From contig NZ_JANKMS010000006.1 of assembly GCF_024649945.1 (NCBI RefSeq), positions 62,001 through 126,000 on the forward strand: a stretch of 64,000 bases of DNA. The letters run 5' to 3'. Positions 13,583-50,314 of the stretch are shown here, one piece after another; positions within the stretch are counted from its first letter, which is position 1, and each line of letters opens with the position of its first letter. Made by a program: the position numbers and the translations under genes. Below the pieces are notes generated by a model. The model was not told where the DNA came from and made no database searches. It saw only the letters and a program-made list of their open reading frames with translations. This DNA is from Flavobacterium panacis. Its GTDB lineage: Bacteria; Bacteroidota; Bacteroidia; Flavobacteriales; Flavobacteriaceae.

Positions 13583-13585
13583 GGT

Positions 13586-18478: not shown

Positions 18479-19132
18479 ATGAAAAATAAATTAGAAGAGT
18501 TAGAAAAAAGTCTACAGCCTTTTGCAGTAGATTCTAATATGACTGGAAATAACCTTTTAGTTTTTCCTAAAGAGTTTCAAGAAGTTCATTCTTATAAAAT
18601 TTTTGGAAGTAATTTGTTAGCGATTCCTGCAAGTTTAATAATGGAAGGAGATGATGAAGAATTTGAAAAACCATTTCGTTTTCTTTCGGGGCAAGATGAA
18701 CTTGATACTTTTGAAAGTGAATTTAGGGAAGATGTTCCAGATGAATTTATTCAGATTGGAAATCTGTATGAAGTAACAGAAATAGTTCTTCTCAATAAAA
18801 TTCGTAATACGATCCATATTTTTCATGTACAGGATGTTTTTGATTCGGAGTGGATGAAATATAAACTGGAAAAAGAGATTTGTACGCTTGATGAATTTAT
18901 TAATGCACTGAGACCTCAAACCGTTTCTTGTTTTATGAATCCATCCAACTATTCAGAATATGACATTTTTGAAATCAGAAATGAGACAGAAGTGTTTTGC
19001 AAAACAACTTCTACAAAATATTCAGATCAAGAGAATACATGGGCAGCTTATTTTAAACTTGTAGATGAAGCAGTTGCAAAGGGATATGAAATTCATTATG
19101 CACCTCAAATCGTTATTGAAAAGTTAAACTAG
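18479..19132 (+). CDS. SUKH-like immunity-type protein (diverged)
   Basis: A 217-residue acidic soluble protein. The segment FIQIGNLYEVTEIVLLNKIR, then HIFHVQDV and a final helix TLDEFINAL (about residues 90-140) follows the order of the later part of SMI1/KNR4 proteins (strand with IG, strand with LN, then a helix of the type LDEFI). The N-terminal helix motif is not evident. It ends 4 bases before the next SUKH gene, which supports the assignment by context. Confidence 0.6.
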   Translation: MKNKLEELEKSLQPFAVDSNMTGNNLLVFPKEFQEVHSYKIFGSNLLAIPASLIMEGDDEEFEKPFRFLSGQDELDTFESEFREDVPDEFIQIGNLYEVTEIVLLNKIRNTIHIFHVQDVFDSEWMKYKLEKEICTLDEFINALRPQTVSCFMNPSNYSEYDIFEIRNETEVFCKTTSTKYSDQENTWAAYFKLVDEAVAKGYEIHYAPQIVIEKLN

Positions 19133-19136
19133 AATT

Positions 19137-19691
19137 ATGGAAAACACACTTCAAAAATTAGATCAAAATTTGTCTTCTCTAAGATCAGAATTTTATAAAA
19201 CCTTACAGGAACCAGTAAACGATACAGATATAGATTCTCTAGAAAAGAAATACAATATCGTTTTACCAGAAGATCTAAAAGCACTTTATAAATGGAAAAA
19301 CGGACAGGAAAATAGTAATTTTGAATCGTTTGTAAATAATTCCATGTTTATTGCTCTGGATGAAGCTCTTGATATCGCATCTGAAAATACCTCAATGATT
19401 GGTTTTGATTTTGAAATTGAAAATTGGTGGAACGCAAAATGGATTCCTTTGTTTCATAATGGAGGAGGAGATTACATCTGTTATGACTGTGGTGGTACTT
19501 TCACAGGAAACGCTGGACAAATTATTGAATTTTGGCATGCAGATAATGACAGGAATATCATAGCTCCAAATCTTGAAGCCTTTCTTTCTCAATTAAATTC
19601 TTATTTTGAAAAGAATGAAACTGCAGCTTTTGATGAATATTTTGAAGTTGAAAATATAGAAGGATATCCAAAGAAGTTTATTGTTAGTTAA
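19137..19691 (+). CDS. SMI1/KNR4-like (SUKH) immunity-type protein
   Basis: A 184-residue classic SMI1/KNR4 protein. The opening motif is DIDSLEKKYNIVLPEDLKAL then YKWKNGQ (residues about 31-57); the middle has WWNAKWIPLFHNGGGDYIC and DCGGTF (about 98-121), where WIPL--NGGGD is the family signature; then IIEFWHADNDRN and a final helix LEAFLSQL. It is the last gene of the array and the clearest family member. About 100 bases separate it from the following thioredoxin-like gene. Confidence 0.92.
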   Translation: MENTLQKLDQNLSSLRSEFYKTLQEPVNDTDIDSLEKKYNIVLPEDLKALYKWKNGQENSNFESFVNNSMFIALDEALDIASENTSMIGFDFEIENWWNAKWIPLFHNGGGDYICYDCGGTFTGNAGQIIEFWHADNDRNIIAPNLEAFLSQLNSYFEKNETAAFDEYFEVENIEGYPKKFIVS

Positions 19692-31952: not shown

Positions 31953-33257
31953 CTATTCAGTGACTGTTTTTACTTTGTGACCAAAAGCTCCGAAAGAAAG
32001 AATTATAAGGAAACAAACCAAAGGAATAATATATCCTGATTGAATGTCATCATGATTCATATCAATCAAAGTTCCCATTCCGTAAGGAATAATCGCTCCA
32101 CCAACAATTGACATTACTAGCCAAGAAGAACCTGTTTCTGTATTCGATTTTAGGCCTTTAATTCCTAAAGAGAAAATAGTTGGGAACATAATTGACATAA
32201 AGAACCCGATTCCTCCAAGTGCGTAAATAACCACGATTCCTGAACCGTAAATAGCAACTAAACAAAGTACAGCACTCATGATGCAATAAATTGATAATAA
32301 AACGTAATCTTTTACAAAACGTAAAAAGAAAGTCCCAATAAAACGTCCGGCCATAAAAAGGAAACCATAGATTCCTAAGTAATATCCAGCTGTTTTTTCA
32401 TCTAATCCTGCACCTTGCTGTGCAATTCTAATAAAGAAACTCGTAATACAAACCTGTGCACCAACATAGAAAAATTGTGCTACAACTCCCCAGCTTAAGT
32501 GTCTAAATCTTAAAACAGAGAAAAATCCTGGTTTAATTTCAGCTTCAGCATGAGTGGCTTTCATTGAAGGCAATTGTACAAAATAAAATATAATAGCTAC
32601 TAAAACCAAAATACTTCCTAACACGATATAAGGCATTTTAACAGAAGCTGCTTCGCCTAAAAGATAAGCCGCTTTTTCAGCCTCAGGCATTGCTGCCATT
32701 TGTTCTGGCGTATGGTTTGTTCCTGAAAGAATAAACAACGATCCTACAATTGGAGCAACCATCGCTGCTAATCCATTAAAAGAAGCCGCTAAATTTAATC
32801 TCTTTGAAGAAGATTCTGCAGGTCCTAAAATTGCAGCATATGGATTTGCACTGGTTTCTAATATGGTCAAACCACATCCGATTACGAATAAGGCAAATAA
32901 AAATAATTCGTAAGTTCTTGTATTTGCTGCTGGTACAAACAAAAATGCTCCTGCTGCAAAAACTAATAATCCAGTAATAATACTATTCTTGTATCCAAAT
33001 CTTTTGATAAGCATCCCTGCAGGAATTGCCATAATAAAATAAGCAAAGAATACAGAAGTATCGATTAGTGTAGATTGACGATTGTTTAATTCACACGCTT
33101 TTTTCAAGTGTGGAATCAAAACAGAATCAAGATTATGGGCCATTCCCCAAAGGAAAAATAGGCAGGTAACAAGAATAAAAGGCAAAAGATATTGTTTTTG
33201 ATTTCCGCCTTCTGTCGGCACGTTGTGTTGATCGCCAGCTTGGTTTGTAATTTGCAT
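31953..33257 (-). CDS. Sugar MFS transporter, FucP family (L-fucose:proton symporter-like)
   Basis: A 434-residue inner-membrane permease with 12 predicted spans. Family signatures are FFLWGMAHNLDSVLIPHLKK (about residues 35-54), a cytoplasmic loop with MLIKRFGYK, LETSANPYAAILGP (the ETxANPY motif) and RLNLAASFNGL. E. coli FucP imports L-fucose with protons; relatives also take other hexoses, so substrate is not certain. Here it is the last gene of the minus-strand CoA-transferase operon, after 201 bases of repeats, which fits uptake of the deoxy sugar handled by the adjacent pathway genes. Confidence 0.92.
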   Translation of the reverse strand: MQITNQAGDQHNVPTEGGNQKQYLLPFILVTCLFFLWGMAHNLDSVLIPHLKKACELNNRQSTLIDTSVFFAYFIMAIPAGMLIKRFGYKNSIITGLLVFAAGAFLFVPAANTRTYELFLFALFVIGCGLTILETSANPYAAILGPAESSSKRLNLAASFNGLAAMVAPIVGSLFILSGTNHTPEQMAAMPEAEKAAYLLGEAASVKMPYIVLGSILVLVAIIFYFVQLPSMKATHAEAEIKPGFFSVLRFRHLSWGVVAQFFYVGAQVCITSFFIRIAQQGAGLDEKTAGYYLGIYGFLFMAGRFIGTFFLRFVKDYVLLSIYCIMSAVLCLVAIYGSGIVVIYALGGIGFFMSIMFPTIFSLGIKGLKSNTETGSSWLVMSIVGGAIIPYGMGTLIDMNHDDIQSGYIIPLVCFLIILSFGAFGHKVKTVTE

Positions 33258-33290: not shown

Positions 33291-33465
33291 TGACTAAGGT
33301 ACTAAGTTGCTAAGGTTCTAAGTTTTTTCTTAGCGACTTTGTGTCTTTGCGAGAAATCAAAAAGCAAACTTAGAATGATTTCGCAAAGTGACTTAAGGGC
33401 ACAGCTTTTTGTTTTGCTACAAAGTAGATAAAACTTAGTGCCTTAGAATCTTAGCATCTTAGGAC
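33291..33465. repeat. Repeat region of CTAAG and CGCAAAG words
   Basis: The words ACTAAGG, CTAAGTT and TTCTAAG are repeated on the left, and their complements (CTTAGTGCC, CTTAGAATC, CTTAGCATC, CTTAGGACC) on the right, around an inner pair GACTTTGTGTCTTTGCGAG / TTTCGCAAAGTGACTT. It fills the gap between the MaoC-like and FucP-like genes. The same vocabulary appears at 527-840. Confidence 0.7.
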
Positions 33466-33902
33466 CTTTTCTTGACAAATAAAAGGTGATCACAAACAAG
33501 AACTACCTCTCCACGTTGGTTAATGATTTCTACATGTTCTGTGACAGCGCCCAATTCGGGATTTTTTGCTTCGCCTTTTTCAGAAATAGTGATTTCAGAA
33601 TGAATGGTATCGCCAATGTGAACAGGTTTTACAAAACGCATTCTGTCATAACCTCTTGAAAAAGCTTCTGGATTTATTTCTGATGCAGTCAAACCAATTC
33701 CAATACTGAAAACCATGGTTCCGTGTGCAATTCTTTGTCCGAAAGGTTGTGTTTTACACCATTCTTCGTCCATATGGTGAGGAAAGAAATCTCCCGTATG
33801 TCCGGCGTGAACTACAAAATCAGTTTCTGTTATTGTCCTGCCTACGGTTACTCGTTTATCGTCGATGGTATAATCTTCGAAAAAAGTCGATTTAAAATAC
33901 AT
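33459..33902 (-). CDS. MaoC-like hydratase/dehydratase (hot-dog fold)
   Basis: A 147-residue hot-dog fold protein. The MaoC motif is [15 protein letters not shown] (residues 35-49), with Asp38 and His43 in the places of the catalytic dyad; the usual Asn two after Asp is Phe40. [16 protein letters not shown] (about 57-72) is the second signature, and [16 protein letters not shown] the strand common to the family. Members hydrate or dehydrate enoyl-CoA type thioesters. Together with two CoA-transferases in the same operon, this suggests a CoA-linked acid as the pathway intermediate. Confidence 0.9.
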
Positions 33903-34012
33903 AATTTAGATACTTTTTATTCGTCAGCTCTTTCAAATAAATATCAAAATGATCTTTATTTTGAAGAGGACTAAAATTTGTTTTTTTTTGGTTTTGAAAT
34001 ATAGTGTTTTAA

Positions 34013-35086
34013 TTACACTTCATCAAAATAAATTCCGCCATTTTTACTGCTCGCATAACAAGCTTCTACAACTTTCATTGTTCCTAAAACATCTTGAACA
34101 CTAGCAGATAATATGGCGTCAGAACCTTCTTTATAACGCATTAGATTGGACATTGCGCCAATAAAAGCTTCTGGAAACCATGAACCTTCTAGTTTAACTT
34201 CTGTCCATTCGTATTCCTTTTCATTATCTTTTTTTGGCAGAGCATACTCAAAAACGTCCGGAAGACCGTCAGGATAATTCATCAATAAGCCCATTTTTGC
34301 TTTAACGGCACCTTTTGTTCCTTCCCATTTAATGTAACTTTCCTCGTGTTTTGGCCCAAAATGATGATCGTGATTCGTATTGATCACAACATGTTTATCT
34401 TCGCCATAATCTAAAATAATCGTAGATCTGCTCGACGATAATTTTTTAAGCGGATGTTTAGCCGTTTTAGCCATAACGCTTTTCGGATTTCCTAAGAAAG
34501 AACGAATACAATCAATGTAATGAACGCTATGAAAAAGAATTTCCAATCTTGGATGTTCTTTAATTAAAGGAAATAATTCCCAAGGCGTATTTACAGTTAC
34601 TTTAAATTCTAAATCGTATAATTCGCCAATAATACCTTGATCAATCAAATATCTAGCTGCGCTTACAAACGAAGCAAAACGAAGTTGGAAGTTTATAGCA
34701 GCAACCAGATTTTTTCTTTCGCATACTTCTACAATTTCGCGAGCTTGCGCTAAGTCATTTCCCATTGGTTTCTGAATCAAAACCGCAGCGCCGTCTGGCA
34801 ATTGCTCCAAAATTTCGATGTATTGATCAGGTAAAACCGTAATATCGTAAACGGCGTTTGAAGGCGCATTTTTAACCGCATCGGCAACACTTTCAAAAAC
34901 ATGATCGATTTTGAATTCTTTTTGTAAATCGTATGCTTTTGAAATTGTTCTATTGGTAATACCAAAAACTTTAAAACCAGCCATTTCATAAGCAGGAAGA
35001 TGCGCGTCTTTTACGATGCCACTTGCGCCGATAATGATGATTGGCTGTTCTGTTTCGGGTAATAAAGGTTTGTATGGAATATTCAT
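34013..35086 (-). CDS. Gfo/Idh/MocA family oxidoreductase
   Basis: A 357-residue NAD(P)-dependent oxidoreductase. The Rossmann part begins PIIIIGASGIVKDAHLPAYE (residues 15-34). The usual EKP catalytic motif is QKP (residues 105-107), keeping the lysine. The substrate domain contains YDLEFKVTVNTPWELFPL and HSVHYIDCIRSFLGNPKSV, with the histidines typical of the family. Members oxidise or reduce sugars and related polyols. It follows the binding-protein-like gene by 2 bases and precedes the MaoC-like gene by 110 bases, within one operon. Confidence 0.9.
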   Translation of the reverse strand: MNIPYKPLLPETEQPIIIIGASGIVKDAHLPAYEMAGFKVFGITNRTISKAYDLQKEFKIDHVFESVADAVKNAPSNAVYDITVLPDQYIEILEQLPDGAAVLIQKPMGNDLAQAREIVEVCERKNLVAAINFQLRFASFVSAARYLIDQGIIGELYDLEFKVTVNTPWELFPLIKEHPRLEILFHSVHYIDCIRSFLGNPKSVMAKTAKHPLKKLSSSRSTIILDYGEDKHVVINTNHDHHFGPKHEESYIKWEGTKGAVKAKMGLLMNYPDGLPDVFEYALPKKDNEKEYEWTEVKLEGSWFPEAFIGAMSNLMRYKEGSDAILSASVQDVLGTMKVVEACYASSKNGGIYFDEV

Positions 35087-35088
35087 AT

Positions 35089-36312
35089 TTATTCTATTTT
35101 TTGAATATTAATCTGTGTTTCTTCTAATAATTGTGCCGAAGGAATATCGCTATTAATGGCTTTTAAAACCATGTGATCAATAAATTCGCAAACCTTTGGC
35201 CAAATTGGGGTTTGTGGCAAAGTCAAAGCATTTTCGTGCAGCATTTCCAATTTATGATAAAACGGAATCAAGTTATTGATTTCTTCATCTTTCCAAGTTG
35301 ATTTTCTACAGCCAATTCCACCTTCTTTTGTCAACAATTTGTCGCTTTCGGCAGTTGTGGCAAAACGCAGAAAATCGTAAGCCAATTTTTTATGTTTACT
35401 TCCAGAACCAATTGTATACAACCAATACACATTCAAAGAAGCCGTTTTATGATTTGGATCGGATGGAAGGGAAGTAATATCAATTTTGCCTTTTATTTTC
35501 GATTCTTCAATTACTTGCGCCATCGAAGCAAATCCGAACCAATTGATTGCCATTGCAGCTTGTCCATCGGCGAAAGCCAAACCGGCTTCAACCGAACCAA
35601 AGTCTTTCGATTTTGGATGAACAGCATCTTTATTAGTTACTATTTTTCTATAGAAATCCAAAGCTTGAATTCCAGCTTCACTATAAATTGAAATTTGATT
35701 TTTATTATTAATCAGAGAACCTCCGCGTGTCCATAATTGCAAACAAAAGTCAAAAACCATATTATGTCCGTCTGGATAATTCGCAAAAATAGTTCCGTAT
35801 AGATTTTCTTCCGGTCTATTGAAAAAAGTGGCTATTTCAGTGAATTCTTTCCAAGTTTTTGGTGTAGAAAGTTCGTAACCAAATTGCTTTTTGAAGTTCT
35901 CTTTTTCGGTTTCGTTTTCGAATAAATCTTTTCTGTAAATCAGACATTCTGGACCGTCATGAAAAGGAAGTCCGTATGTTCCATTATCCAGTTTTTGTAA
36001 ATGAAGAAGCGATTTATGCCAACCATAAGGATAATTTTCTGGAGGATTTTCTGCAATAAAAGGATATAAATCTTGAACCGCTTTTTCGTGTACAGCATCA
36101 AAAATCCAATCGGTGTTGATGTGTGCAATATCCCATTTTCCTTCTTTTAAACCTTTTTTAGAAATCGTGGTTTCATACAATTCATGAAGTTCCATCGGAA
36201 TCATTTCGGCTTCAATTTGAATATTGTTTTGAAGACAAAAAGCATCCCACAACTTTTGCAATGTACTTTCGAAGGGATCGAATTTTCGAACGGCGATTCT
36301 AATTTTATCCAT
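35089..36312 (-). CDS. Substrate-binding-protein-like protein without signal peptide
   Basis: A 407-residue protein of the extracellular solute-binding protein family 1 (sugar ABC transporter type): KIRIAVRKFDPFESTLQKLW opens the first lobe, WDIAHINTDWI and YGLPFHDGPECLIYRKDLFE are typical hinge and lobe segments, and FADGQAAMAINWFGFASMAQ is the signature of lobe two. Yet it starts directly at the first strand of the fold. There is no signal peptide, and the single base between this start and the previous stop leaves no room for one. No ABC permease or ATPase is nearby. It pairs with a CaiB-type gene and has a counterpart at 38799. Its role is probably cytosolic. Confidence 0.85.
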   Translation of the reverse strand: MDKIRIAVRKFDPFESTLQKLWDAFCLQNNIQIEAEMIPMELHELYETTISKKGLKEGKWDIAHINTDWIFDAVHEKAVQDLYPFIAENPPENYPYGWHKSLLHLQKLDNGTYGLPFHDGPECLIYRKDLFENETEKENFKKQFGYELSTPKTWKEFTEIATFFNRPEENLYGTIFANYPDGHNMVFDFCLQLWTRGGSLINNKNQISIYSEAGIQALDFYRKIVTNKDAVHPKSKDFGSVEAGLAFADGQAAMAINWFGFASMAQVIEESKIKGKIDITSLPSDPNHKTASLNVYWLYTIGSGSKHKKLAYDFLRFATTAESDKLLTKEGGIGCRKSTWKDEEINNLIPFYHKLEMLHENALTLPQTPIWPKVCEFIDHMVLKAINSDIPSAQLLEETQINIQKIE

Positions 36313-36313
36313 T

Positions 36314-37453
36314 TTAGCAGTCTATAAATTCTTTAATAATGCGTTCGTTATCTTGACCTAATTTTGGAGAACCTTTTTCAGAGGTCAAATATTCGCCGTC
36401 AATTTTTATTGGACAACGCGTTGTTTTATACGTATAACCATCCAGCATTTCTACTTGTTGCATGAAATTCAAAATTTTAAAACCATCTTCTTCAAAAAGC
36501 TGTTGATAGTTTAAAACTCCAGCACACCAAATGTCAGCAGGTTCTAAAATATCCAACCAAAATTGTGTTTCCTGTGTTTGCAAATGCTCAGCCAAGATGT
36601 TTTTGATGTCGTCTCTAAGCGTAAATTTATTTTCAGGAAATTGCAATAAAGCATCGCATTTCAGCAAAGAAGCCAAAACAGGAATGGAACCCATTGCTAA
36701 GGCTAAATAACCGTTTTTGGTTTTGTAAATTCCGTATGGTGCACCCAAATAAGCGTGTGCATTATTGGTTTTGGTTCTAACAGGTAATTCGCCACCATCA
36801 TTGAAATAGGTCGTAATAGTTTCAAATTGAAAATCAAATGCCGATTCCAACATGCTGACTTGAATTTGCGCTCCAATATTATGCGTTGCTTTTCGATATA
36901 AAGCAGCTAAAATTCCTTGTGCCAAATGCGCTCCTGCAAGCATGTCTACAATCGACAATCCCATCGGAACAGGACCATCCTCTTGATTACCGCTGAGCCA
37001 AGTTAAAGCCGTTAAAGATTGTAAAAGCAAATCCTGACCCGGTAAATCTTTCAAATCTGGATGTTCTCCAAAACCTGAAATGGATCCATAAATTACATTT
37101 GGATTAATGTTTTTCACGTCCTCATAACTCAAACCAATGCGTTCCATAACTCCAGGTCTGAAATTATGCATGACAACATCGGCTTTGGCCAATAATTTTT
37201 TTAATTTTTGAAGTTCTTCAGGTTGTTTAAAATCAATCGCAAAAGATTCTTTGTTTCTGTTGATGGTATGAAAAACAGACGATTCGCCGTTCATAATCAA
37301 ATCAGAAGTATATAAGGTTCTGCAGATATCTCCCGTTCCCGGTTTTTCAATTTTTATCACACGCGCACCTAAATCGGCCAATCGTAAACTGGCTGAAGGC
37401 CCCGAAAGAAACTGACTGAAATCTACAATTAAATAATCTTCTAATGGTTTCAT
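36314..37453 (-). CDS. CaiB/BaiF family CoA-transferase (class III), paralogue 1
   Basis: A 379-residue CoA-transferase. It begins LEDYLIVDFSQFLSGPSASL, with RLADLGARVIKIEKPGTGD (about residues 24-42), HNFRPGVMERIGL (96-108) and MGLSIVDMLAGAHLAQGILA; Asp170 is at the place of the catalytic aspartate that forms the acyl anhydride. The family moves CoA between carboxylic acids. It is colinear with the paralogue at 37660, including Asp170 at the same number, so the pair arose by duplication and may form a heteromer. It follows that gene after 206 bases of repeats. Confidence 0.93.
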   Translation of the reverse strand: MKPLEDYLIVDFSQFLSGPSASLRLADLGARVIKIEKPGTGDICRTLYTSDLIMNGESSVFHTINRNKESFAIDFKQPEELQKLKKLLAKADVVMHNFRPGVMERIGLSYEDVKNINPNVIYGSISGFGEHPDLKDLPGQDLLLQSLTALTWLSGNQEDGPVPMGLSIVDMLAGAHLAQGILAALYRKATHNIGAQIQVSMLESAFDFQFETITTYFNDGGELPVRTKTNNAHAYLGAPYGIYKTKNGYLALAMGSIPVLASLLKCDALLQFPENKFTLRDDIKNILAEHLQTQETQFWLDILEPADIWCAGVLNYQQLFEEDGFKILNFMQQVEMLDGYTYKTTRCPIKIDGEYLTSEKGSPKLGQDNERIIKEFIDC

Positions 37454-37659
37454 ATTATGTTTAACCGTTTAACAGGTTATATGTTTAATCGTTTTATTCA
37501 ATAATTAAAAATCTAATTTGATCTGCTCAAATCTTTTTAATCCCGATAGCTATCGGGAGCGTGAAATCCTTTTTTTGAGCATAGATTTTTTACGCAGATT
37601 TACACAGATTAAAGCAGATTAAAGCAGATTTATACAGATTTATACAGATTTAATTCAAA
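37454..37659. repeat. Repeat-filled gap with six tandem decamers
   Basis: The key part is 37591-37650: six consecutive 10-base units that all end CAGATT (first four letters tacg, taca, aaag, aaag, tata, tata). Upstream on the plus strand lies the perfect palindrome CCCGATAGCTATCGGG at 37542-37557, which recurs at 62077-62092. The block splits the operon between the two CoA-transferase genes. Confidence 0.85.
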
Positions 37660-38802
37660 TTATTGAATGAACTCTTCTTGTATTCTTAAATTATCCTGAC
37701 CAACTTTTGGCGCTGCTTTTTCGCTAAGCAGAATCTCACCATCCAATTGAATCGGACTTCTTGTTGTAACCAACGTTTCTCCTTCTGTATTTTTTACAGT
37801 TTGTTTTAACTGTAATTCATTCACAAAAGGCTGATTGTCCAGTTCTTCATAATTGAAAACTTTTCCGCACCAAATGCCTTCTTTCTGTAAAATTTCAATC
37901 CAATAATCAGAAGTTTGAGTTTGAATTCTTTCGCTCAAAATCGTTCTGATTTCATCTCGTTTTTCAAACCACAAATGCTTATCCGCGAAAGCGTTTAAAT
38001 CCAATCCTAATGTTTTTCCGATAAAAATCAAATCGCCCATCGCAAGAGACAAATAACCGTCTTGCGTTTGGTAAATTCCGTAAGGCGCACTTAAAAAAGC
38101 ATGCGCACTTCCTTTTATATCACCACGTTCAGGCAATTGACCGCCATCATTTAAGAAAGAAGTAATCGCTTCAAATTGTACATCTAAAATCGATTCTAAT
38201 AAACTCACTTCAACCAAAACTCCTTTTTTGGTTTTGGCTCTTTTTAAAAGTGCTGCTAAAATTCCTTGTACAAAATGATTCCCGCACATTAAGTCGGCAA
38301 CTGCCAATCCAAACGGAACTGGCCCTTGACTTTTGCGTCCGCTTAACCAGCTTAAACCAGAAAGCGATTGCAACAATAAATCCTGCCCCGGTTTTTTAGC
38401 CCACGGACCTTCATTTCCGTAACCTGTAATCGTTCCGTAAATAATTTGCGGATTTATAGAAAGCGTATTTTCAAAATCCAAACCGATTTTTTCCATCACA
38501 CCAGGTCTGAAATTATGCGTCATAATATCAGCCTTTTCGATTAGTTTTTTAATCAAAACCAAATCGTCTGGATTTTTTAAATCGGCTGCAAAAGATTCTT
38601 TATTTCTGTTTATTGTATGAAAAAGCAAACTGCTGTCGTCTACAAATAAATCTTTGATACTTAATTGTCTGCAAGCTTCACCTTTTATGGGACGCTCGAT
38701 TTTGATGACGCGCGCGCCCAAATCGGCTAGTTTTAAACCAGCGGATGGTCCAGCCAAAAACTGACAGAATTCCAGAACAATTAGTCCTTCTAAAGGTCTC
38801 AT
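37660..38802 (-). CDS. CaiB/BaiF family CoA-transferase (class III), paralogue 2
   Basis: A 380-residue CoA-transferase with the same layout as its neighbour: LEGLIVLEFCQFLAGPSAGL, LKLADLGARVIKIERPIKGE, FHTINRNKESFAADLKNPDD, HNFRPGVMEKIGL, GQDLLLQSLSGLSWLSG and FGLAVADLMCGNHFVQG, with the catalytic-position Asp170. It overlaps the binding-protein-like gene upstream by 4 bases (ATGA), so the two are translationally coupled. No acyl-CoA ligase or thiolase is present in the window; the acid substrate is unknown. Confidence 0.93.
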   Translation of the reverse strand: MRPLEGLIVLEFCQFLAGPSAGLKLADLGARVIKIERPIKGEACRQLSIKDLFVDDSSLLFHTINRNKESFAADLKNPDDLVLIKKLIEKADIMTHNFRPGVMEKIGLDFENTLSINPQIIYGTITGYGNEGPWAKKPGQDLLLQSLSGLSWLSGRKSQGPVPFGLAVADLMCGNHFVQGILAALLKRAKTKKGVLVEVSLLESILDVQFEAITSFLNDGGQLPERGDIKGSAHAFLSAPYGIYQTQDGYLSLAMGDLIFIGKTLGLDLNAFADKHLWFEKRDEIRTILSERIQTQTSDYWIEILQKEGIWCGKVFNYEELDNQPFVNELQLKQTVKNTEGETLVTTRSPIQLDGEILLSEKAAPKVGQDNLRIQEEFIQ

Positions 38803-39947
38803 ACAGTCTGGATTTTTAAAGATTCTGCGTAAAGTCCATTCATTTCTTCTAATACTTTCAATTCGTCTCCGCCATTCATCAAATAATTACGAACCACATC
38901 ACCTGCGTGATCTTGGAAATACATATGTCCGTAATATCTCGGACGAAGGAAAGCGCGTTCTAAAGCTGGTAACGTATTTTTGAAATAATCGTGCGTTACA
39001 CCATTAATTCTCTCGCTTTTCCAAGCTTGTAAATGTCCTGGCTGACCGCCGTTATCCGTATAAATATTTTGCTGTACTTGTGATGAACATGTAAATTCAG
39101 CATATTTTATTGCCGTTTCAGTATGTTCGCTGAATGAAGAAACAGCTAATCCTGTTCCGCCCAAAGAAGAAATCATTGGATTATCATTCAAACTTACTAA
39201 ATCATAAAAATGTAAAAGTTTATTGCTGTAACCACTTCTAGAATAGTTAGAATAACCGTAAGCGAAAGGGCAGTAGGCAATTTCATCAGAATTTACCATT
39301 GCCTCATAAACCTGAATTGGATTTCGGTTAAAGTTAGCCGGATCAATCAATTGCGCCAGTTCTCTAAACATTTGAAGCGCTTTTTTTCCTGTAGTTTCAG
39401 AAATCACTTTTTCTTCAGAAAGAAAAGGAGCTTCTCCCAAACTACAGCAAAACATGTAAAAACTCATTAAAACATCTACCGGAATTCCTGCGAAAGCGAC
39501 TAAACCTTTTTTCGCTAAAGCCAATAAATCATCATATGTTTTAGGAACTTCTAAGTTGTTTTTTTCTAAAAGATCCAAGCGGGCAGAAGCAACTGGAGTT
39601 GCCGCATCAATAGGAAGTGCCCATAATTTATCGTGAAAAACGTAACTTCCGTATGATTTTCCAACGGTATTAATTTCTTGATCTTTAATATATTCGTTTG
39701 ATAAATAATCAGATAAAGGAAGAATTGCTTTGGTTTGCGCTCCAAAACCTGTCCAAGGATGATCGATTACCAATAAATCAAATCTTTTGGCTAAGTCTTC
39801 GATTGAAGCATCGGCAAATTCTTGTAAACTTCTCTTTTCCCAAGAAATTTCAACTTCAGGATGTAGTTCTGTAAAACGTTGAGATGTGGCAACCATTGGA
39901 AGCAAACCTCTTGTGTGATTCCAAGTTATACCTTTTAATTTTATCAT
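38799..39947 (-). CDS. Substrate-binding-protein-like protein without signal peptide
   Basis: A 382-residue protein of the solute-binding protein family 1. It begins at the first strand (IKLKGITWNHTRGLLPMVAT), followed by FTELHPEVEISWEKRSLQEF and the segment FDLLVIDHPWTGFGA. The second lobe contains YEAMVNSDEIAYCPFAYGYS and SSLGGTGLAVSSFSE. There is no signal peptide or lipobox, and no transporter genes nearby. It is the first gene of the minus-strand operon, translationally coupled to the CoA-transferase at 37660. A palindromic operator lies 24 bases upstream of its start codon. Confidence 0.85.
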   Translation of the reverse strand: MIKLKGITWNHTRGLLPMVATSQRFTELHPEVEISWEKRSLQEFADASIEDLAKRFDLLVIDHPWTGFGAQTKAILPLSDYLSNEYIKDQEINTVGKSYGSYVFHDKLWALPIDAATPVASARLDLLEKNNLEVPKTYDDLLALAKKGLVAFAGIPVDVLMSFYMFCCSLGEAPFLSEEKVISETTGKKALQMFRELAQLIDPANFNRNPIQVYEAMVNSDEIAYCPFAYGYSNYSRSGYSNKLLHFYDLVSLNDNPMISSLGGTGLAVSSFSEHTETAIKYAEFTCSSQVQQNIYTDNGGQPGHLQAWKSERINGVTHDYFKNTLPALERAFLRPRYYGHMYFQDHAGDVVRNYLMNGGDELKVLEEMNGLYAESLKIQTV

Positions 39948-39984: not shown

Positions 39985-40243
39985 TTAATAAATGTAGAAA
40001 ATACAATTACAAAAGTAGGAATAAGATTGATATGAACAAGAAATCGTTTTCTTTTTAAGAAATCTTTTTTACATAAATCGATAATTAGTGATATTATTTT
40101 TACAAACTGTCTAAAAAATGTTATAAAATTTTAAAGTTTGGTCACTTTTATAAGAGTTAAATGAAATATATCTCGAATATTAATTTTTTAAAAGTATTTT
40201 TGTAATTGTGATTTTTACATTTATTAATTTTGATGCAGCTTTT

Positions 40244-40314: not shown

Positions 40315-41169
40315 ATGAAATTAATACGTTTTGGAGAAATCGGAAAAGAAAAACCAGGAGTTTTAATTGGAGAAAAAAGATACGATGTTTCTTCGATTGT
40401 AACCGATTTTAACGAAAGTTTCTTTGAAGAAAATGGATTGGAGAAATTACAAAAAGCCTTAGAAAGCAATCCGACTTTGCCAGAAGTTGATGCTTCGGTA
40501 CGTTTGGGTTCGCCTGTGGCAAGACCTTCAAAAATTATTTGTATTGGATTGAATTACATCGATCACTGTAAAGAAACCAATGCTCCGATTCCAATAGAAC
40601 CTATTATTTTCTTTAAATCAACGACTTCTTTGTGTGGTCCAGATGATGATTTGATTATTCCAAAAAACAGTGAAAAAACAGATTGGGAAGTTGAATTGGC
40701 TTTCATCGTTGGAAAAAAAGCGAGTTATGTGGAAGAAGCTGAAGCATTAGATTATGTTGCTGGTTATGCTTTGTTGAATGATTATAGCGAAAGAGCTTTT
40801 CAATTAGAGCGTGGCGGACAATGGGCAAAAGGAAAAGGAAGCGACACTTTTGCGCCTCTTGGACCGTTTTTGGCAACGAAAGACGAAATTGCAGATGTTG
40901 ATAATTTAAAAATGTGGCTGACAGTAAACGGTAAAAAATACCAAGACAGCAACACGTTGAATTTAGTTTTCAAAATTCCTTATTTGGTGCATTATTTAAG
41001 TCAATTTATGACATTGCTTCCTGGCGATATTATTAGTACAGGAACGCCTCCGGGAGTTGGTTTAGGTATCAAACCAGATCCGATTTACATTAAAGCGGGA
41101 GATGTTGTAGAATTAGGAATTGAAGGTTTAGGAACGAGCAAACAGAAAGCTGTAGCGTATCAAAAATAA
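40315..41169 (+). CDS. Fumarylacetoacetate hydrolase (FAH) family protein
   Basis: A 284-residue hydrolase/lyase. Residues 70-280 form the FAH domain: KIICIGLNYIDHCKETNAPI, IIFFKSTTSLCGPDD, and the metal site DWEVELAFIVGK (Glu125, Glu127) with Asp156 in NDYSER. GQWAKGKGSDTFAPLGPFL and STGTPPGVGLG are typical of the subgroup that cleaves 2,4-diketo-3-deoxy sugar acids. In the non-phosphorylating L-fucose or L-rhamnose pathway such an enzyme releases pyruvate and lactate. It leads the plus-strand operon, 18 bases before the alcohol dehydrogenase gene. Confidence 0.9.
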   Translation: MKLIRFGEIGKEKPGVLIGEKRYDVSSIVTDFNESFFEENGLEKLQKALESNPTLPEVDASVRLGSPVARPSKIICIGLNYIDHCKETNAPIPIEPIIFFKSTTSLCGPDDDLIIPKNSEKTDWEVELAFIVGKKASYVEEAEALDYVAGYALLNDYSERAFQLERGGQWAKGKGSDTFAPLGPFLATKDEIADVDNLKMWLTVNGKKYQDSNTLNLVFKIPYLVHYLSQFMTLLPGDIISTGTPPGVGLGIKPDPIYIKAGDVVELGIEGLGTSKQKAVAYQK

Positions 41170-41187: not shown

Positions 41188-42201
41188 ATGAAATATATTG
41201 TTTGCGAAAAACCGCAGGAATTTCTATTAAAAGAAACGAATATTCCAGAACCAAAAGAAGGTGAAGTTTTATTGAAAATTAAAAGAATCGGAATCTGCGG
41301 AACTGATATTCACGCTTTTGGCGGAACGCAGCCTTATTTTGAATATCCTAGAATTTTAGGTCACGAATTGGCTGCAGAATATGTAAAAGGAAATGCTGAA
41401 GGTTTTAAACCAGGAGATAAAGTAACTTTTATTCCGTATTTTAACTGTGGAAAATGTGTTGCGTGCAGAAATGGATTGACAAATTGCTGTGTCAATATTA
41501 AAGTTTTTGGAGTGCATATTGATGGCGGAATGGCTGAATATGTTTCTATTCCAGAGCAATATTTATTGCACGGTCAAGGTTTGGATTATGATGAATTGGC
41601 TTTGGTTGAACCTTTGGCAATTGCAGCGCACGGCGTTAGAAGAGCGGCTGTAAAAGCTACAGATACCGTTTTGGTAATGGGAGCAGGACCAATCGGAATT
41701 GGTTTGATTCAGTTTGCTAAAATCGCTGGTGCAAAAGTGATCGTAATGGATATCAACGATTACAGATTGAATTTCTGTAAAGAGCAATTGCAAGCAGATG
41801 AAACAATCAATCCTTTGAATGATGACGTTGCGGCAAAATTGGCTGAATTGACTAACGGAGATATGGCAAACGTAGTAATTGATGCGACTGGAAATCAGAA
41901 AGTGATGAACAGTGCTTTCAATTATATTTCGCATGGCGGAAGATTTGTTTTGGTTGGACTTCAAAAAAACGAATTAAGTTTTAGTCATCCTGATTTCCAC
42001 AAAAGAGAATCGACTTTGATGAGCAGTAGAAATGCAACCATTGAAGATTTCGAATATGTAATGAAATGTTTGAAAGAAGGAAAAATCGATCCGAAAAAAT
42101 ATATCACTCATAGAACAAGTTTTTCTGAAATGATTAATGATTTCAGGAATCTAATTGATCCTAAAAATAATGTGATCAAAGCGTTGATTGAAATTGAGTA
42201 G
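41188..42201 (+). CDS. Zinc-dependent alcohol dehydrogenase, sugar (acid) type
   Basis: A 337-residue medium-chain dehydrogenase. The catalytic zinc ligands are Cys37 (GICGTD) and His59-Glu60 (LGHE). The structural zinc cysteines are Cys87, Cys90, Cys93 and Cys101. The nucleotide-binding motif is VMGAGPIGIGLIQFAK, followed by an Asp at the end of the second strand (MDIND), which suggests NAD. The sequence is of the L-galactonate/L-threonine dehydrogenase-like type. In this operon it could oxidise the sugar or the 2-keto-3-deoxy acid. A palindrome that may end transcription follows at 42211. Confidence 0.92.
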   Translation: MKYIVCEKPQEFLLKETNIPEPKEGEVLLKIKRIGICGTDIHAFGGTQPYFEYPRILGHELAAEYVKGNAEGFKPGDKVTFIPYFNCGKCVACRNGLTNCCVNIKVFGVHIDGGMAEYVSIPEQYLLHGQGLDYDELALVEPLAIAAHGVRRAAVKATDTVLVMGAGPIGIGLIQFAKIAGAKVIVMDINDYRLNFCKEQLQADETINPLNDDVAAKLAELTNGDMANVVIDATGNQKVMNSAFNYISHGGRFVLVGLQKNELSFSHPDFHKRESTLMSSRNATIEDFEYVMKCLKEGKIDPKKYITHRTSFSEMINDFRNLIDPKNNVIKALIEIE

Positions 42202-42419: not shown

Positions 42420-43217
42420 ATGGATTTAAACTTAAAAAATAAAATTGTTGTCGTTTCTGGTTCGGCTGGAAAAGAAGGCAGTATCGGAGAAACAATCGTT
42501 AACAGATTGGCGGATGAAGGCGCGATTCCGGTTTTGGTTGACCGAAATGCAAGAGGTTTTGAATATGTAGAAAGACTTCAAAAAAGAGGCGTTAATTCTT
42601 TATTCGTACAAACAGATGTAACAGATCCTGTTGCAATAGAAAACGCAGTAAAAGTAATCGGAGCGAAATACGGTAGAATCGATGCCATAATCAATAATGT
42701 CGGAGTAAATGACGGAGCAGGATTAGATTCTAGCTATGAAGATTTCATGAATTCTTTGAAATTGAATGTGGTAAGTTATTTTCTTTTAGCGAAATATTCG
42801 TTGCCGTTTTTGAAAGAATCAAAAGGGAATATTTTAAATATTGGTTCAAAAGTCGCTTTAACAGGACAAGGTGGAACTTCAGGTTACGCTGCTGCAAAAG
42901 GTGGAGTTTTAGGCTTGACAAGAGAATGGGCGGTAGATTTGATCCAGTTTGGAATTCGTTCGAATGCGATTATTATTGCTGAAAGCTATACGCCAGCTTA
43001 CGAAGATTGGATTAAAACATTGCCAGACGGTCAAACGGTTTTGAATAAAATCAATAAAAGCATTCCGCTAGAAAGCAGAATGACTAAAACAGAAGAAATT
43101 GCAGATACAGCACTTTTCATCATTTCAGAAAAATCATCGCATACTACAGGACAATTTGTTTTTGTGGATGGAGGTTACGTACATTTAGACCGCGCATTAA
43201 TCAGCGATGTTAACTAA
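42420..43217 (+). CDS. SDR family oxidoreductase
   Basis: A 265-residue classical short-chain dehydrogenase. The nucleotide motif is stretched: GSAGKEGSIG at residues 14-23. Asp41 (VLVDRN) favours NAD. NNVG (92-95), Ser143 (IGSK), Tyr156 and Lys160 (YAAAK) complete the active site. The C-terminal motif HTTGQFVFVDGGYVHLD is typical of the family. Related enzymes oxidise L-fucose, or 2-keto-3-deoxy-L-fuconate to the diketo acid that a FAH hydrolase then splits. It lies 6 bases before the lactonase-like gene, so both are one transcript. Confidence 0.93.
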   Translation: MDLNLKNKIVVVSGSAGKEGSIGETIVNRLADEGAIPVLVDRNARGFEYVERLQKRGVNSLFVQTDVTDPVAIENAVKVIGAKYGRIDAIINNVGVNDGAGLDSSYEDFMNSLKLNVVSYFLLAKYSLPFLKESKGNILNIGSKVALTGQGGTSGYAAAKGGVLGLTREWAVDLIQFGIRSNAIIIAESYTPAYEDWIKTLPDGQTVLNKINKSIPLESRMTKTEEIADTALFIISEKSSHTTGQFVFVDGGYVHLDRALISDVN

Positions 43218-43223: not shown

Positions 43224-44060
43224 ATGAGTAAAAGAATTGATTCCCATCAGCATTTTTGGAAGTTTGATCCCGTTAGAGACAGCTGGATTGATGAAACGAT
43301 GCAAAATATTCAGAGAGATTTTCTTCCTGAAGATTTACATCCAATTTTAAAAGAAAATCAATTTGAAGGTTGTGTGGCTGTTCAAGCAAGTCAGTCTGAA
43401 GAAGAAACAAGTTTTTTATTGGATTTAGCATCAAAAAATGATTTTATAAAAGGTGTTGTCGGCTGGATAGATTTAAGAAATGAAAATATCGAAGAGCGTT
43501 TACAATTCTTTTCCAATCAAAAAAAACTAAAAGGTTTTAGACACGTTGTTCAAGGTGAACCAAACGATTTTATGTTTGGAGAAGCTTTTAGAAACGGAAT
43601 ACAAGCTTTAAAATCATTTGATTATACGTACGATATTTTGATTTTCGAACGTCAATTACCAGCTGCAATTAGTTTGGTAAAAGATTTTCCAAATCAGCGA
43701 TTTGTGATTGATCATATTGCAAAACCAGATATCAAATCAGGAAGTATTGATTCTTGGAAAAAAGGCATCGAAGAAATCGCAAAATATGACAACGTTTACT
43801 GCAAAATCTCAGGAATGGTCACAGAAGCAGACTGGAAAAACTGGAAACCAGAAGATTTAAAACCATACTTGGATGTAATCTTTGAAAACTTCTCAACAGA
43901 TAAATTAATGTACGGATCAGATTGGCCGGTTTTAAACGTAGCTTCTAATTATAATGAAGTGGTGAAAACTTTAGAAGATTATATTGCTAAATTTTCGATT
44001 GAGGATCAGAATAAGATTTGGTTTGAGAATGCAATTTCATTTTACAATCTGAATGATTAG
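43224..44060 (+). CDS. Amidohydrolase-family sugar lactonase (L-fuconolactonase/L-rhamnonolactonase-like)
   Basis: A 278-residue TIM-barrel hydrolase of the COG3618 type. The metal-binding motif is DSHQHFW (His8, His10) followed by WIDE. Further signatures are GCVAVQASQSEEET, GVVGWIDLR, KGFRHVVQGEP, FVIDHIAKPDI, YCKISGMVTEADW and MYGSDWPV (the active-site aspartate). Members open the lactone of L-fuconate, L-rhamnonate or L-galactonate. With the SDR, zinc dehydrogenase and FAH genes it makes up most of a non-phosphorylating deoxy-sugar pathway; the sugar acid dehydratase is not in the window. Confidence 0.92.
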   Translation: MSKRIDSHQHFWKFDPVRDSWIDETMQNIQRDFLPEDLHPILKENQFEGCVAVQASQSEEETSFLLDLASKNDFIKGVVGWIDLRNENIEERLQFFSNQKKLKGFRHVVQGEPNDFMFGEAFRNGIQALKSFDYTYDILIFERQLPAAISLVKDFPNQRFVIDHIAKPDIKSGSIDSWKKGIEEIAKYDNVYCKISGMVTEADWKNWKPEDLKPYLDVIFENFSTDKLMYGSDWPVLNVASNYNEVVKTLEDYIAKFSIEDQNKIWFENAISFYNLND

Positions 44061-47794: not shown

Positions 47795-50314
47795 ATGCGT
47801 TTAAATTCAGTTACTAAAATATTCGTTGTCTTTTTGTTAATCCTCACTTCATTTTCGATGAGTGCCGCTGAAATCTGGGTTTCTCCAAAAGGAAATGACA
47901 AAAATTCGGGAACAAAAGAAAGTCCACTGGCAACAGTTCATATGGCAATGAGAAAAGCCAGAGAACTTCGTCGTTTAAAAGATGCATCAGTAAAAGACGG
48001 AATTAGAATTATAGTAATGAACGGAACGTATTACTTAAACGAACCTTTGTTTGTAAGACCTGAAGATTCTGGAACAGCAGAAAGCCCGACTACAATTGAA
48101 GCCGATGCAAATGCAAAACCAATAATCAGCGGCGGAATTGAAATCAAAAACTGGACAAAATCAACTACTGTTATCAACGGACTTAAAAAAGGTGCTGTTT
48201 GGGTAGCTGATGCTCCAAAAAAAGCAGGAAGCATTATCGATTACAGACAATTATGGGTTAATGGTAAAAAAGCTGTAAGAGCCAAAAATACTGCTGGAAC
48301 CACAATGGAACGTATTTTATCATGGAATCACGAAGAGCAAACGTGTTGGATTCCGTTTAAAGATAAATCTGTTAAGTATGAACCGGGAATGGAAATGTTT
48401 ATTGTACAATGGTGGTCGAATGCCAACTTGCGTATCAAAAATATTGAAGTAAAAAAAGACAGTGCAAAACTTTCGTTTGAAGAACCAGAAAGCCGTATTC
48501 AAAGCGAACATCCTTGGCCTGCACCGTGGATTTCTAAAAACAATGGAAACTCTGCTTACTTCTTAAACAATGCTTTTTCACTTTTAAACGAACCTGGAGA
48601 ATGGTATTTAGACAAGAAAAATGCTAAAATCTATTATATTCCAAGAGCTGGTGAAGAGATTAATTCAGTAACAATTACTGCTCCAGTTTTAGAAAATTTG
48701 GTTGAAGTAAAAGGAACAATCGATTCTCCTGTGCATCATTTCAGATTTAAAGGAATTTCGTTTCAATACAGCAACTGGCTTCGTCCTTCGCAGCAAGGTC
48801 ACGTGCCGTTGCAATCAGGTTTGTATTTGTTAGACGCTTATAAATTGAAACAGCCGGGAACTCCAAATCAGGCGAATCTAGAAAATCAAGCTTGGGTTGG
48901 AAGACCTCGTGCAGCAGTTGAAGTCAATTATTCGAATAATATTCAGTTTGAATCCTGCCGTTTTGAGCATTTGGCTTCGACTGGTTTGGATTTAAATAAA
49001 GGAACAAATCACAATACAATAAAAGGAAATTTATTTAAAGATATTGGCGGAAGCGCTATTAATGTTGGGATTTTTTCGGAAGAAGCTTTTGAAGCGCATT
49101 TGCCTTTAATCATAAAAGATGAAAGAGAAATGTGTTCTGATGAAATAATTGCTGATAACTTAATAACAAACGTAACCAATGAAGATTGGGGAACTTTAGG
49201 AATCAGCGCTGGTTTTGTTCGAAATATTACGATTGAACACAACGAAATTTCAGATGTATCGTATTCTGGAATGGCAATGGGATGGGGTTGGACACACACG
49301 CCAAACGTGATGCAGAACAACAAAATTTTAGGAAATAAAATTCATCATTACGCAAAACATTTACACGATGTAGCTGGAATCTACACGCTTTCTGCACAGC
49401 CAGGAAGCCGAATTGAAGAAAATTATATTGACAAGGTTTACAACAGTCCGTATGCACACGACCCGTTTTTATGGTTGTATTTGTATACCGATGAAGGTTC
49501 TGAAGGTTTTACGATTAAAAATAACTGGATTGCTGAAAAGAAAATCTTAAAAAATCATAACGGTCCAAAAGGAAATATCTGGGAACACAACGATCCGTAT
49601 GTAAGCACAAAAATTAAAGATGATGCCGGAATTAGAGCGCCTTACAAAGATTTAGAAAAAGAAGTTGTAATCGACGAAAAATGGGGATTGCAGGAAATGC
49701 CAAAACCATACGCAATCGAATTGATAGGTTCTGATTTTGACATCGAAAAAATCAAATCGACTTTGACAGGATTCAGAATTGTGGGGCAGGAATTGTACCA
49801 ATGGAAAAATCATTTGGTGATTTACGGAAAAATGAATCAGCCGGAAAGAACAAAACGAAAACTGGCAGGAGCTTTTCCTTCTTTAGAAATTAAAATCTAT
49901 GAAGATTTAGTTTACGATTTCCAAAACTTCGAAAGATGTAAAGATTCTAAACCAGCATCAGATTGGGAAAATATTGTTTTAACTGCGAATCTTCCTGCCG
50001 ATGAAAAACTGCAGAAAGAATATGTAGAATATCACAAAACGCAATTTGAGAAATGGCCAGAAGTTGCAAAAGGTTTCTGTAACGCCGATTTTCAGCAATT
50101 GCAAGTTTTCAAAAAAGACAGACAACTAATCTTGGTAATCAGTATTCCGAAAGGTGAAAATCTGGATAAACTAAATCCGAAAACAACACAAAATAATCCT
50201 CGCGTAGACGACTGGAATGCTTTAATGAAAAAATACCAAAGCGGAATCGATGGCACAAAACCAGATGAAACTTGGATTTTCTTAAACAAAGTAGAAGTAG
50301 AAGCAAAAAAATAA
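47795..50314 (+). CDS. Secreted beta-helix glycosidase (GH141-like) fused to L-rhamnose mutarotase-like domain
   Basis: An 839-residue protein with a signal peptide (about residues 1-25, cut after SAA). Residues 26-115 have the opening IWVSPKGNDKNSGTKESPLA and IIVMNGTYYLNEPLFVRPED, then QLWVNGKKAVRAKN (about 150-163), an order I associate with GH141-type beta-helix enzymes, whose members include a rhamnogalacturonan-II alpha-L-fucosidase. Residues 370-600 are the beta-helix. Residues 726-835 look like an L-rhamnose mutarotase: LQKEYVEYHKTQFEKWPEVA, then WNALMKKYQ. Mutarotases are normally small cytosolic proteins, so a secreted fused copy is unusual. It lies 153 bases before the next gene, with a long palindrome between. 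Confidence 0.8.
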   Translation: MRLNSVTKIFVVFLLILTSFSMSAAEIWVSPKGNDKNSGTKESPLATVHMAMRKARELRRLKDASVKDGIRIIVMNGTYYLNEPLFVRPEDSGTAESPTTIEADANAKPIISGGIEIKNWTKSTTVINGLKKGAVWVADAPKKAGSIIDYRQLWVNGKKAVRAKNTAGTTMERILSWNHEEQTCWIPFKDKSVKYEPGMEMFIVQWWSNANLRIKNIEVKKDSAKLSFEEPESRIQSEHPWPAPWISKNNGNSAYFLNNAFSLLNEPGEWYLDKKNAKIYYIPRAGEEINSVTITAPVLENLVEVKGTIDSPVHHFRFKGISFQYSNWLRPSQQGHVPLQSGLYLLDAYKLKQPGTPNQANLENQAWVGRPRAAVEVNYSNNIQFESCRFEHLASTGLDLNKGTNHNTIKGNLFKDIGGSAINVGIFSEEAFEAHLPLIIKDEREMCSDEIIADNLITNVTNEDWGTLGISAGFVRNITIEHNEISDVSYSGMAMGWGWTHTPNVMQNNKILGNKIHHYAKHLHDVAGIYTLSAQPGSRIEENYIDKVYNSPYAHDPFLWLYLYTDEGSEGFTIKNNWIAEKKILKNHNGPKGNIWEHNDPYVSTKIKDDAGIRAPYKDLEKEVVIDEKWGLQEMPKPYAIELIGSDFDIEKIKSTLTGFRIVGQELYQWKNHLVIYGKMNQPERTKRKLAGAFPSLEIKIYEDLVYDFQNFERCKDSKPASDWENIVLTANLPADEKLQKEYVEYHKTQFEKWPEVAKGFCNADFQQLQVFKKDRQLILVISIPKGENLDKLNPKTTQNNPRVDDWNALMKKYQSGIDGTKPDETWIFLNKVEVEAKK

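Follow-up and report, generated by a model that had tools for sequence, protein, structure and literature searches.

A conserved gene set links solute-binding-protein homologues lacking recognisable export signals to family III CoA-transferases in Flavobacterium panacis

We analyzed a 64,000-nucleotide stretch (the window) of the 5.96 Mb genome of Flavobacterium panacis (assembly GCF_024649945.1, contig NZ_JANKMS010000006.1, positions 62,001 to 126,000). On its minus strand, from 39947 to 33459, two solute-binding protein (SBP) homologues without recognisable export signals flank a pair of family III coenzyme A (CoA) transferases, and this linkage is conserved in other bacteria. The gene order is SBP_A, CaiB_1, CaiB_2, SBP_B, a Gfo/Idh/MocA oxidoreductase and a MaoC-type hydratase, followed on the same strand by a FucP-type symporter. 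Intergenic gaps do not exceed 206 bases and the run was therefore taken as a single operon, presumably comprising all seven genes. SBP_A overlaps CaiB_1 by 4 bases (ATGA), and the stop of CaiB_2 and the start of SBP_B lie one base apart. The first six genes, their order, their coordinates and both couplings had been described in an earlier reading of the sequence alone (the sequence-only reading), and all proved to be as stated on re-analysis.

A scan of species genomes returned at least 571 relatives of SBP_A. The best 80 loci were kept; by title all are from Bacteroidota, and since many are close relatives they do not count as independent. The order SBP_A-CaiB_1-CaiB_2-SBP_B-Gfo-MaoC-FucP is shared by 73 of the 80. 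Outside the 73 are a locus on a 6.3-kb contig (L083), two loci without the end of the gene set (L119 and L128) and four in which the genes near SBP_A-CaiB_1-CaiB_2 are instead those of a crotonase and of an aldehyde dehydrogenase (L123, L124, L126 and L127). Among 149 Flavobacteriaceae genomes, a strong SBP_A match was obtained in 12, and the transferase family (Pfam CoA_transf_3) is present in 12 of these 12 versus 5 of the 137 others (Fisher p 3.9e-14; an SBP_A match of E 9.6e-4 in G103 was dropped, and the test presumes that both profile searches drew the identical 149 genomes). The transferase lies within ~1 kb of SBP_A in 11 of the 12 genomes and 18 kb away in G011. Across Bacteroidota, SBP_A occurs in 19 of 395 genomes and 9 of 170 genera. 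SBP_B was found at E ≤1e-20 in 6 of the 149 Flavobacteriaceae genomes and is thus the rarer partner.

Neighbourhoods were counted in 111 loci, that is 113 minus one without SBP_A (L022) and one with a broken SBP_A frame (L161). A CaiB gene lies within ~10.5 kb of SBP_A in 108 of the 111, and within 400 nucleotides on the same strand in 101. Two of the ten exceptions to the closer spacing, L021 and L156, are 4-base overlaps by annotation, where open reading frame (ORF) calling had over-extended the genes; the unannotated L158 is probably a further such case. Because of the order shared by 73 of 80 loci and the co-occurrence across genomes, the linkage of SBP_A to CaiB is real and beyond chance. 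The sequence-only reading had proposed a search for a conserved neighbourhood of the two families; it was found in these 73 loci and in several alphaproteobacteria and Variovorax.

The module occurs in Bacteroidota, Pseudomonadota and Actinomycetota, and a variant with SBP_B in at least one haloarchaeon; its genes are carried by Sinorhizobium meliloti 2011 and by Pedobacter and Flavobacterium species. Plasmid records with SBP_A number 148, of which Sinorhizobium accounts for 90. CaiB precedes SBP_A, the opposite order, and overlaps it by 4 bases in S. meliloti, S. medicae, Shinella, Labrenzia, Thalassospira, Pararhizobium and Variovorax, and five of these seven loci have carbohydrate ATP-binding cassette (ABC) genes with their own SBP nearby. 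In three of them, from Shinella, Labrenzia and Pararhizobium, the module adjoins the genes of a complete carbohydrate ABC transporter, which include one for a signal-bearing SBP. These three loci, which also hold rhamnose mutarotase, Gfo, MaoC and short-chain dehydrogenase/reductase (SDR) genes, are an internal contrast between an exported and a predicted cytosolic SBP. Croceibacterium has SBP_A before CaiB, the two sharing 4 bases, as well as SBP_B and another CaiB gene nearby. Streptomyces and Jannaschia have looser versions, with CaiB within the locus and not adjacent to SBP_A. In the archaeon Halostagnicola, SBP_B is found near CaiB, MaoC, an AMP-binding protein, a rhamnose mutarotase and a fucosidase. 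Two further observations concern SBP_A itself. In Microvirga (L157:8988-11173), an SBP_A-like gene shares 4 bases with a mannonate dehydratase gene, and the annotation shows no CaiB within 10 kb; the dehydratase is possibly another enzyme partner of an SBP_A-like protein. In Rhizobium sp. RCAM05350 (L161:8001-9137), the SBP_A frame 3' of CaiB is split into short unannotated ORFs and is either a pseudogene or a sequencing error.

Export was judged by hydropathy and by inspection of the reading frames. Peak hydropathy within the first 45 residues is 0.57 for SBP_A and 0.61 for SBP_B; ten annotated transporter binding proteins from related loci have N-terminal peaks of 1.82-2.50. In front of SBP_B, an in-frame stop lies three codons before the start. 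Upstream of SBP_A the frame is open for 61 codons and holds no ATG, GTG or TTG. By these measures no export signal is recognisable in either protein. Among relatives of at least 30% identity, extension by more than 4 residues is impossible for 85 of 110 SBP_A and 70 of 87 SBP_B frames. The hydrophobic stretch potentially encoded 5' of SBP_A overlaps the sequence TTG-N19-TAnnTTTG, ~70 bases before the start, which resembles a promoter consensus. This motif was retained in 22 of 89 loci, namely the window itself plus loci from Flavobacterium or Flavobacteriaceae (the count excludes loci below 55% identity and those with little sequence before the gene). Note that in the window alone the motif is not above chance (3 versus 2.3 expected). 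A missed signal peptide was rejected on the basis of the frames, the hydropathy and the promoter-like motif in the upstream stretch. SBP_A and SBP_B are thus predicted to be cytosolic.

No ABC permease was seen near the operon. The genome contains no PF00528-type carbohydrate permease (ribose-type permeases, PF02653, were not searched): its PF00528 matches are MetI, ModB and one weak TauC-like protein, and the sole further SBP_bac_1 match adjoins ModB. A dedicated PF00528 permease elsewhere in the genome was rejected, since nothing beyond these three matched. Both absences noted in the sequence-only reading, of a signal peptide and of a nearby ABC permease, therefore stand, the latter within the families searched. 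Its suggestion that a receptor-fold protein works in the cytosol with acyl-CoA enzymes gains support from the conserved linkage and the lack of a recognisable export signal.

The predicted structure of SBP_A (predicted local distance difference test, pLDDT, 93.7) superimposes on the trehalose/maltose-binding protein 1eu8 with Z 39.0 and a root-mean-square deviation of 2.6 over 373 aligned residues. The closest folds are those of ABC solute-binding proteins, mainly ones for sugars. The modelled fold is complete from residue 1, in agreement with the earlier remark that the protein starts at the first strand of the fold. SBP_B matches 1eu8 by profile (E 1.5e-38).

CaiB_1 and CaiB_2 are the only family III CoA-transferases in the genome. 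Pfam matches were counted when above the curated cut-offs, and in both proteins the CoA_transf_3 match spans the whole domain (positions 1-366 of 366; cut-off 23.3). D170 of CaiB_1 aligns with an Asp in the structure of the transferase 10uh, and D170 of CaiB_2 with a YfdE residue that we count as Asp173, an offset inferred by subtracting 20 tag residues from the chain numbering. In PMC3720670, Asp173 of YfdE is given as the site of covalent catalysis. Neither CaiB matches a characterised equivalog (formyl-CoA, succinate-glutarate, carnitine, oxalate or mesaconate) above cut-off, the best scores being 216 bits versus a cut-off of 750 for CaiB_1 and 181 versus 522 for CaiB_2. The two are 52% identical. 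In five of nine Hymenobacter loci (L106, L108, L109, L113 and L120), CaiB_1 and CaiB_2 form one in-frame ORF of 792-818 residues. This fusion of paralogues suggests that CaiB_1 and CaiB_2 probably form a heterodimer. The 206-base gap between them in the window (37454-37659) contains an intergenic repeat and a palindrome: AATCTGTNTAAATCTG repeats are present there, and the palindrome TCCCGATAGCTATCGGGA occurs both there and at 62076-62093. Across listed relatives with an in-frame gap, the spacing ranges from 0 to 249 bases.

The sequence-only reading had taken the mirror-image arrangement of the four genes as a duplicated two-gene module, and this did not hold. SBP_A and SBP_B are remote, with a 25% match over 97 residues (profile match 98% probability), as against the 52% identity of the transferases. 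In a quick SBP tree with midpoint root they fall into separate groups, each with proteobacterial members, the SBP_B group also with an archaeal one. In a quick CaiB tree, likewise rooted at the midpoint and supported by the Shimodaira-Hasegawa-like approximate likelihood-ratio test (SH-aLRT) only, CaiB_1 and CaiB_2 occupy separate Bacteroidota groups beside alphaproteobacterial ones (support 97 and 80). Several alphaproteobacteria have a single SBP_A and a single CaiB, Croceibacterium with both SBPs and two CaiB genes being an exception. Duplication of an SBP-CaiB pair was therefore rejected. The simplest account seems to be that CaiB duplicated without the SBPs and that two SBPs joined separately; with midpoint rooting, this is an argument and not a proof.

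In 102 of the 111 loci, SBP_A has a CoA-ester hydratase gene within ~10.5 kb. The hydratase is MaoC only in 88 loci, crotonase only in 13 and both in 1, with none in 9. Two unrelated folds thus interchange beside the same transferase, which argues for one chemical step, and the shared step would seem to be addition or elimination of water on a CoA thioester. The MaoC protein of the window matches the solved structure 4ffu (E 6.6e-62) and PaaZ (6jql, E 7.5e-15). It is 65-70% identical to the Gfo-adjacent gene in four alphaproteobacterial loci, where SBP_A is 41% identical at best (in alignment A3). This higher conservation of MaoC than of SBP_A suggests that the substrate is the same in these loci.

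A sugar-type oxidoreductase (SDR, alcohol dehydrogenase or Gfo) is found near 102 of the 111 loci and FucP or RhaT near 86. Together with lactonase-like genes, these suggest a sugar acid as substrate, our best guess being a 6-deoxy-aldonate. The sugar-acid setting proposed earlier is supported by the genes divergent from the operon (Table 1): the L-fucose dehydrogenase scores above its cut-off, the lactonase-like and diketo-acid-hydrolase-like genes below theirs.

Table 1. Features of the operon and of the divergent sugar genes (window coordinates).
Feature	Position	Strand	Evidence
Promoter-like TTG-N19-TAnnTTTG, 5' of SBP_A	40010..40039	-	Kept in 22/89 loci
SBP_A, solute-binding-protein homologue, 382 aa	38799..39947	-	Pfam SBP_bac_8 47.6 bits, also SBP_bac_1
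CaiB_1, family III CoA-transferase	37660..38802	-	CoA_transf_3 303 bits
CaiB_2, family III CoA-transferase	36314..37453	-	CoA_transf_3 298 bits
SBP_B, second SBP homologue, 407 aa	35089..36312	-	SBP_bac_1 94.8 bits, also SBP_bac_8
Gfo/Idh/MocA oxidoreductase	34013..35086	-	Pfam; conserved order in 73/80 loci
MaoC-type hydratase/dehydratase, PaaZ-like	33459..33902	-	MaoC_dehydratas 76.6 bits, cut-off 27
FucP-type major facilitator superfamily (MFS) sugar symporter, end of conserved set	31953..33257	-	TIGR00885 fucP 364 bits, above cut-off
Candidate FAH-family 2,4-diketo-3-deoxy-sugar-acid hydrolase, divergent	40315..41169	+	Best NCBIfam NF053535 374 bits, under cut-off 500
Alcohol dehydrogenase gene in divergent sugar set	41188..42201	+	Translation
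SDR, L-fucose dehydrogenase	42420..43217	+	NF052481 354 bits, above cut-off 300
Amidohydrolase, L-fucono-1,5-lactonase-like	43224..44060	+	NF052480 265 bits, under cut-off 400

The alcohol dehydrogenase in this set is presumably of the zinc type. The window also contains GH141 and rhamnosidase-type genes, and a Pedobacter locus has GH78/GH106. At 47795-50314, a GH141-type beta-helix and a C-terminal L-rhamnose mutarotase (rhaM) domain are joined in a single chain. In Mucilaginibacter (L112:17589-20227), a RuBisCO-like protein and an acid-sugar kinase lie directly downstream of FucP; this pair is closest to OiaX/OiaK of 3-oxo-isoapionate catabolism, under cut-off. Away from the operon, the region 3322-19691 of the window is densely packed with small genes encoding SMI1/KNR4 (SUKH), DKNYY, DUF6138 and DUF1963 domains and resembles a poly-immunity locus (eight ORFs were scanned; two SUKH matches were under cut-off).

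From gene content and conservation, we tentatively propose, at somewhat less than even chance, that the operon encodes a module which handles a sugar acid as its CoA thioester in the cytosol, with the SBPs as dedicated partners of the transferase in binding the acid. FucP would import a 6-deoxy sugar (L-fucose, L-rhamnose or one closely related to them), which would be oxidised at C1, and the lactone would then be opened. A CaiB_1/CaiB_2 heterodimer would transfer CoA from an acyl-CoA to the aldonate, and MaoC, or crotonase in other lineages, would add or remove water on the thioester. The transferase would then hand the CoA from the product to the next substrate, as CaiB does together with CaiD for carnitine. 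SBP_A and SBP_B, having lost export, would capture the acid or present it to the transferase in the cytosol, presumably in physical partnership with CaiB. A bolder version of this proposal, which we regard as doubtful, would make the operon the representative of an undescribed multi-subunit class of sugar-acid:CoA-transferases. In this class, SBPs stripped of export would be permanent cytosolic substrate-binding subunits of a heterodimeric CaiB, and CoA-ester dehydration of aldonates would run parallel to the enolase-family dehydratases.

A number of observations limit or weigh against the proposed module. Concerning the partnership, a read-through chain of SBP_A and CaiB_1, built from L121 with stop codons read as serine, gave a model with a predicted TM-score (pTM) of 0.49 and a poorly folded CaiB part, which speaks neither for nor against a contact. 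No SBP-CaiB fusion was found among the loci >5 kb examined, and the invariant residues of SBP_A show no enrichment in loops (p 0.27). SBP_A-like genes without a CaiB found within 10 kb occur at a Flavobacteriaceae locus (L036), in Microvirga (L157) and at L033, whose genome has one CaiB 18 kb away. The 111 loci are mostly from Bacteroidota and not independent, and the same protein stands twice in the count, as L025 and as L127. Concerning localisation, in 4 of the 111 relatives the SBP_A frame at its longest begins with a hydrophobic stretch (>1.8), via an upstream ATG in L053 and L054 and an upstream TTG in L065 and L074; all four upstream stretches carry the same promoter-like motif. Concerning the substrate, lactonase-like genes of three kinds are near just 35 of the 111 loci, mostly Flavobacterium and including no Pedobacter or Hymenobacter, so that the aldonate step rests on a minority. 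A diketo-acid-hydrolase-like gene is near 24 of the 111, and the archaeal MaoC is just 37.5% identical.

Next to the module, Shinella, Labrenzia and Pararhizobium have genes annotated as sugar-acid dehydratases of the enolase family, and such genes were matched in 7 of the 111 loci; CoA-based dehydration would therefore not be needed there. The F. panacis genome itself encodes two members each of UxuA (mannonate dehydratase), the altronate/galactarate-type dehydratases and IlvD, which weakens the idea that the operon replaces a missing dehydratase. No enolase-family match in this genome resembles a sugar-acid dehydratase. Its enolase-superfamily matches are two proteins of ~100 bits and one of enolase length; the same search, which covered 12 genomes, gave 28 rows of 145-225 bits from the others. 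The two proteins of 336 and 351 residues, just one of which has an NCBIfam match at 1e-40 (DgcA-like, under cut-off), we tentatively take, given their length, to be a dipeptide epimerase and MenC.

Among other explanations, the SBP homologues may themselves be enzymes of the pathway, for example a dehydratase, an epimerase or a lactone-opening enzyme, with CaiB merely performing a neighbouring step and no complex being formed. There is precedent in cyclohexadienyl dehydratase, an SBP lineage turned dehydratase according to PMC7683729. The 40-41% identity of SBP_A between the window and S. meliloti, with many invariant residues, would fit a catalytic role, as would the Microvirga gene, which overlaps a mannonate dehydratase gene and adjoins a lactonase gene in a locus without CaiB. 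However, adjacency is mainly to CaiB (the 101 of 111 loci given above), and the best fold matches are ABC binding proteins, mostly of the sugar type. We consider this explanation unlikely.

Alternatively, the module may not dehydrate a simple aldonate and may instead activate a different acid derived from the same glycans, such as a branched or methylated acid of rhamnogalacturonan; MaoC would then open a cyclic enol ether. The PaaZ domain opens such a ring, and MaoC of the window is PaaZ-like. The GH141 and rhamnosidase-type genes of the window, GH78/GH106 in Pedobacter, the sub-cut-off OiaX/OiaK-like genes of Mucilaginibacter and the small share of loci with lactonase-like genes are all consistent with such a substrate. 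Sugar-type oxidoreductases near 102 of 111 loci and the L-fucose dehydrogenase of the window count against it, and we judge the other glycan acid to be rather improbable. A role of the SBPs as cytosolic buffers or sensors of a pathway intermediate, for example signalling to a regulator and standing outside catalysis, appears more remote. Cytosolic proteins with alternative functions do occur among matches to SBP Pfam families, as reported in PMC9602780, and an IclR-like gene is near 39 of the 111 loci; but the tight coupling is to CaiB, which is constant, whereas the regulators vary (IclR, LacI or none seen). Finally, export without a classical signal, or chance capture of transporter receptors in a CoA operon, would accommodate the membership of these sequences in maltose/trehalose-binding families and the four relatives extendable to a hydrophobic start, but is highly improbable given the absence of a PF00528 carbohydrate permease in the genome (PF02653 not being searched), the separate signal-bearing SBPs that adjoin SBP_A in alphaproteobacterial loci and the persistence of the linkage across phyla.

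The proposed sugar-acid module resembles several known systems in part. In carnitine metabolism, the CoA-transferase CaiB cycles CoA for the enoyl-CoA hydratase CaiD (PMC2131755). E. coli CaiB/CaiD shares with the module the combination of a family III CoA-transferase (108 of 111 loci) and a CoA-ester hydratase (102 of 111), but acts on another substrate class and has no SBP; homology is at the family level only (NF002914, 68 and 81 bits versus a cut-off of 413). YfdE/YfdW and SUGCT have the same fold and an aligned catalytic Asp, whereas the CaiB proteins of the window pass no listed NCBIfam equivalog cut-off. YfdE is a dimer in solution, as stated in PMC3720670; here, two paralogues are paired or fused. 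The sugar-transporter SBPs 1eu8, MalE3 and SmoF share the full fold with the SBP_A model (Z about 37-39) but are exported and permease-coupled, unlike the SBPs of the window, which have no recognisable signal or permease. Benzylsuccinate CoA-transferase (9fn0) is a family III transferase deposited as a 'subunit', and BbsEF is a heteromer; its substrate, in contrast, is aromatic and, to our knowledge, it has no SBP. The oxidative L-fucose/L-rhamnose pathway (diketo-hydrolase route) is represented next door by the L-fucose dehydrogenase and the lactonase-like and FAH-hydrolase-like genes, but we know of no use of CoA in its classical form. Cyclohexadienyl dehydratase reuses the SBP fold in metabolism (PMC7683729) but belongs to the arginine-SBP lineage.

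SBPs are usually regarded as extracytosolic receptors, and annotated relatives bear names such as 'extracellular solute-binding protein' or 'ABC transporter substrate-binding protein', implying transport. Since SBP Pfam families are known to hold cytosolic proteins with other functions (PMC9602780), a cytosolic SBP is by itself not new. The new element appears to be the conserved pairing of a predicted cytosolic SBP with a CoA-transferase. In the open-licence text of PubMed Central (PMC), with subscription papers outside this coverage, we found no description of such a pairing among the papers listed, judged by their titles.

In conclusion, the route looks like an undescribed path for the breakdown of sugars such as fucose or rhamnose in many soil and marine bacteria. 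If the SBPs do serve a cytosolic CoA-transferase, at least several hundred genomes would carry a mis-annotated sugar-acid pathway, sugar acids would be shown to be processed as CoA thioesters, and an established SBP family would gain a new role.

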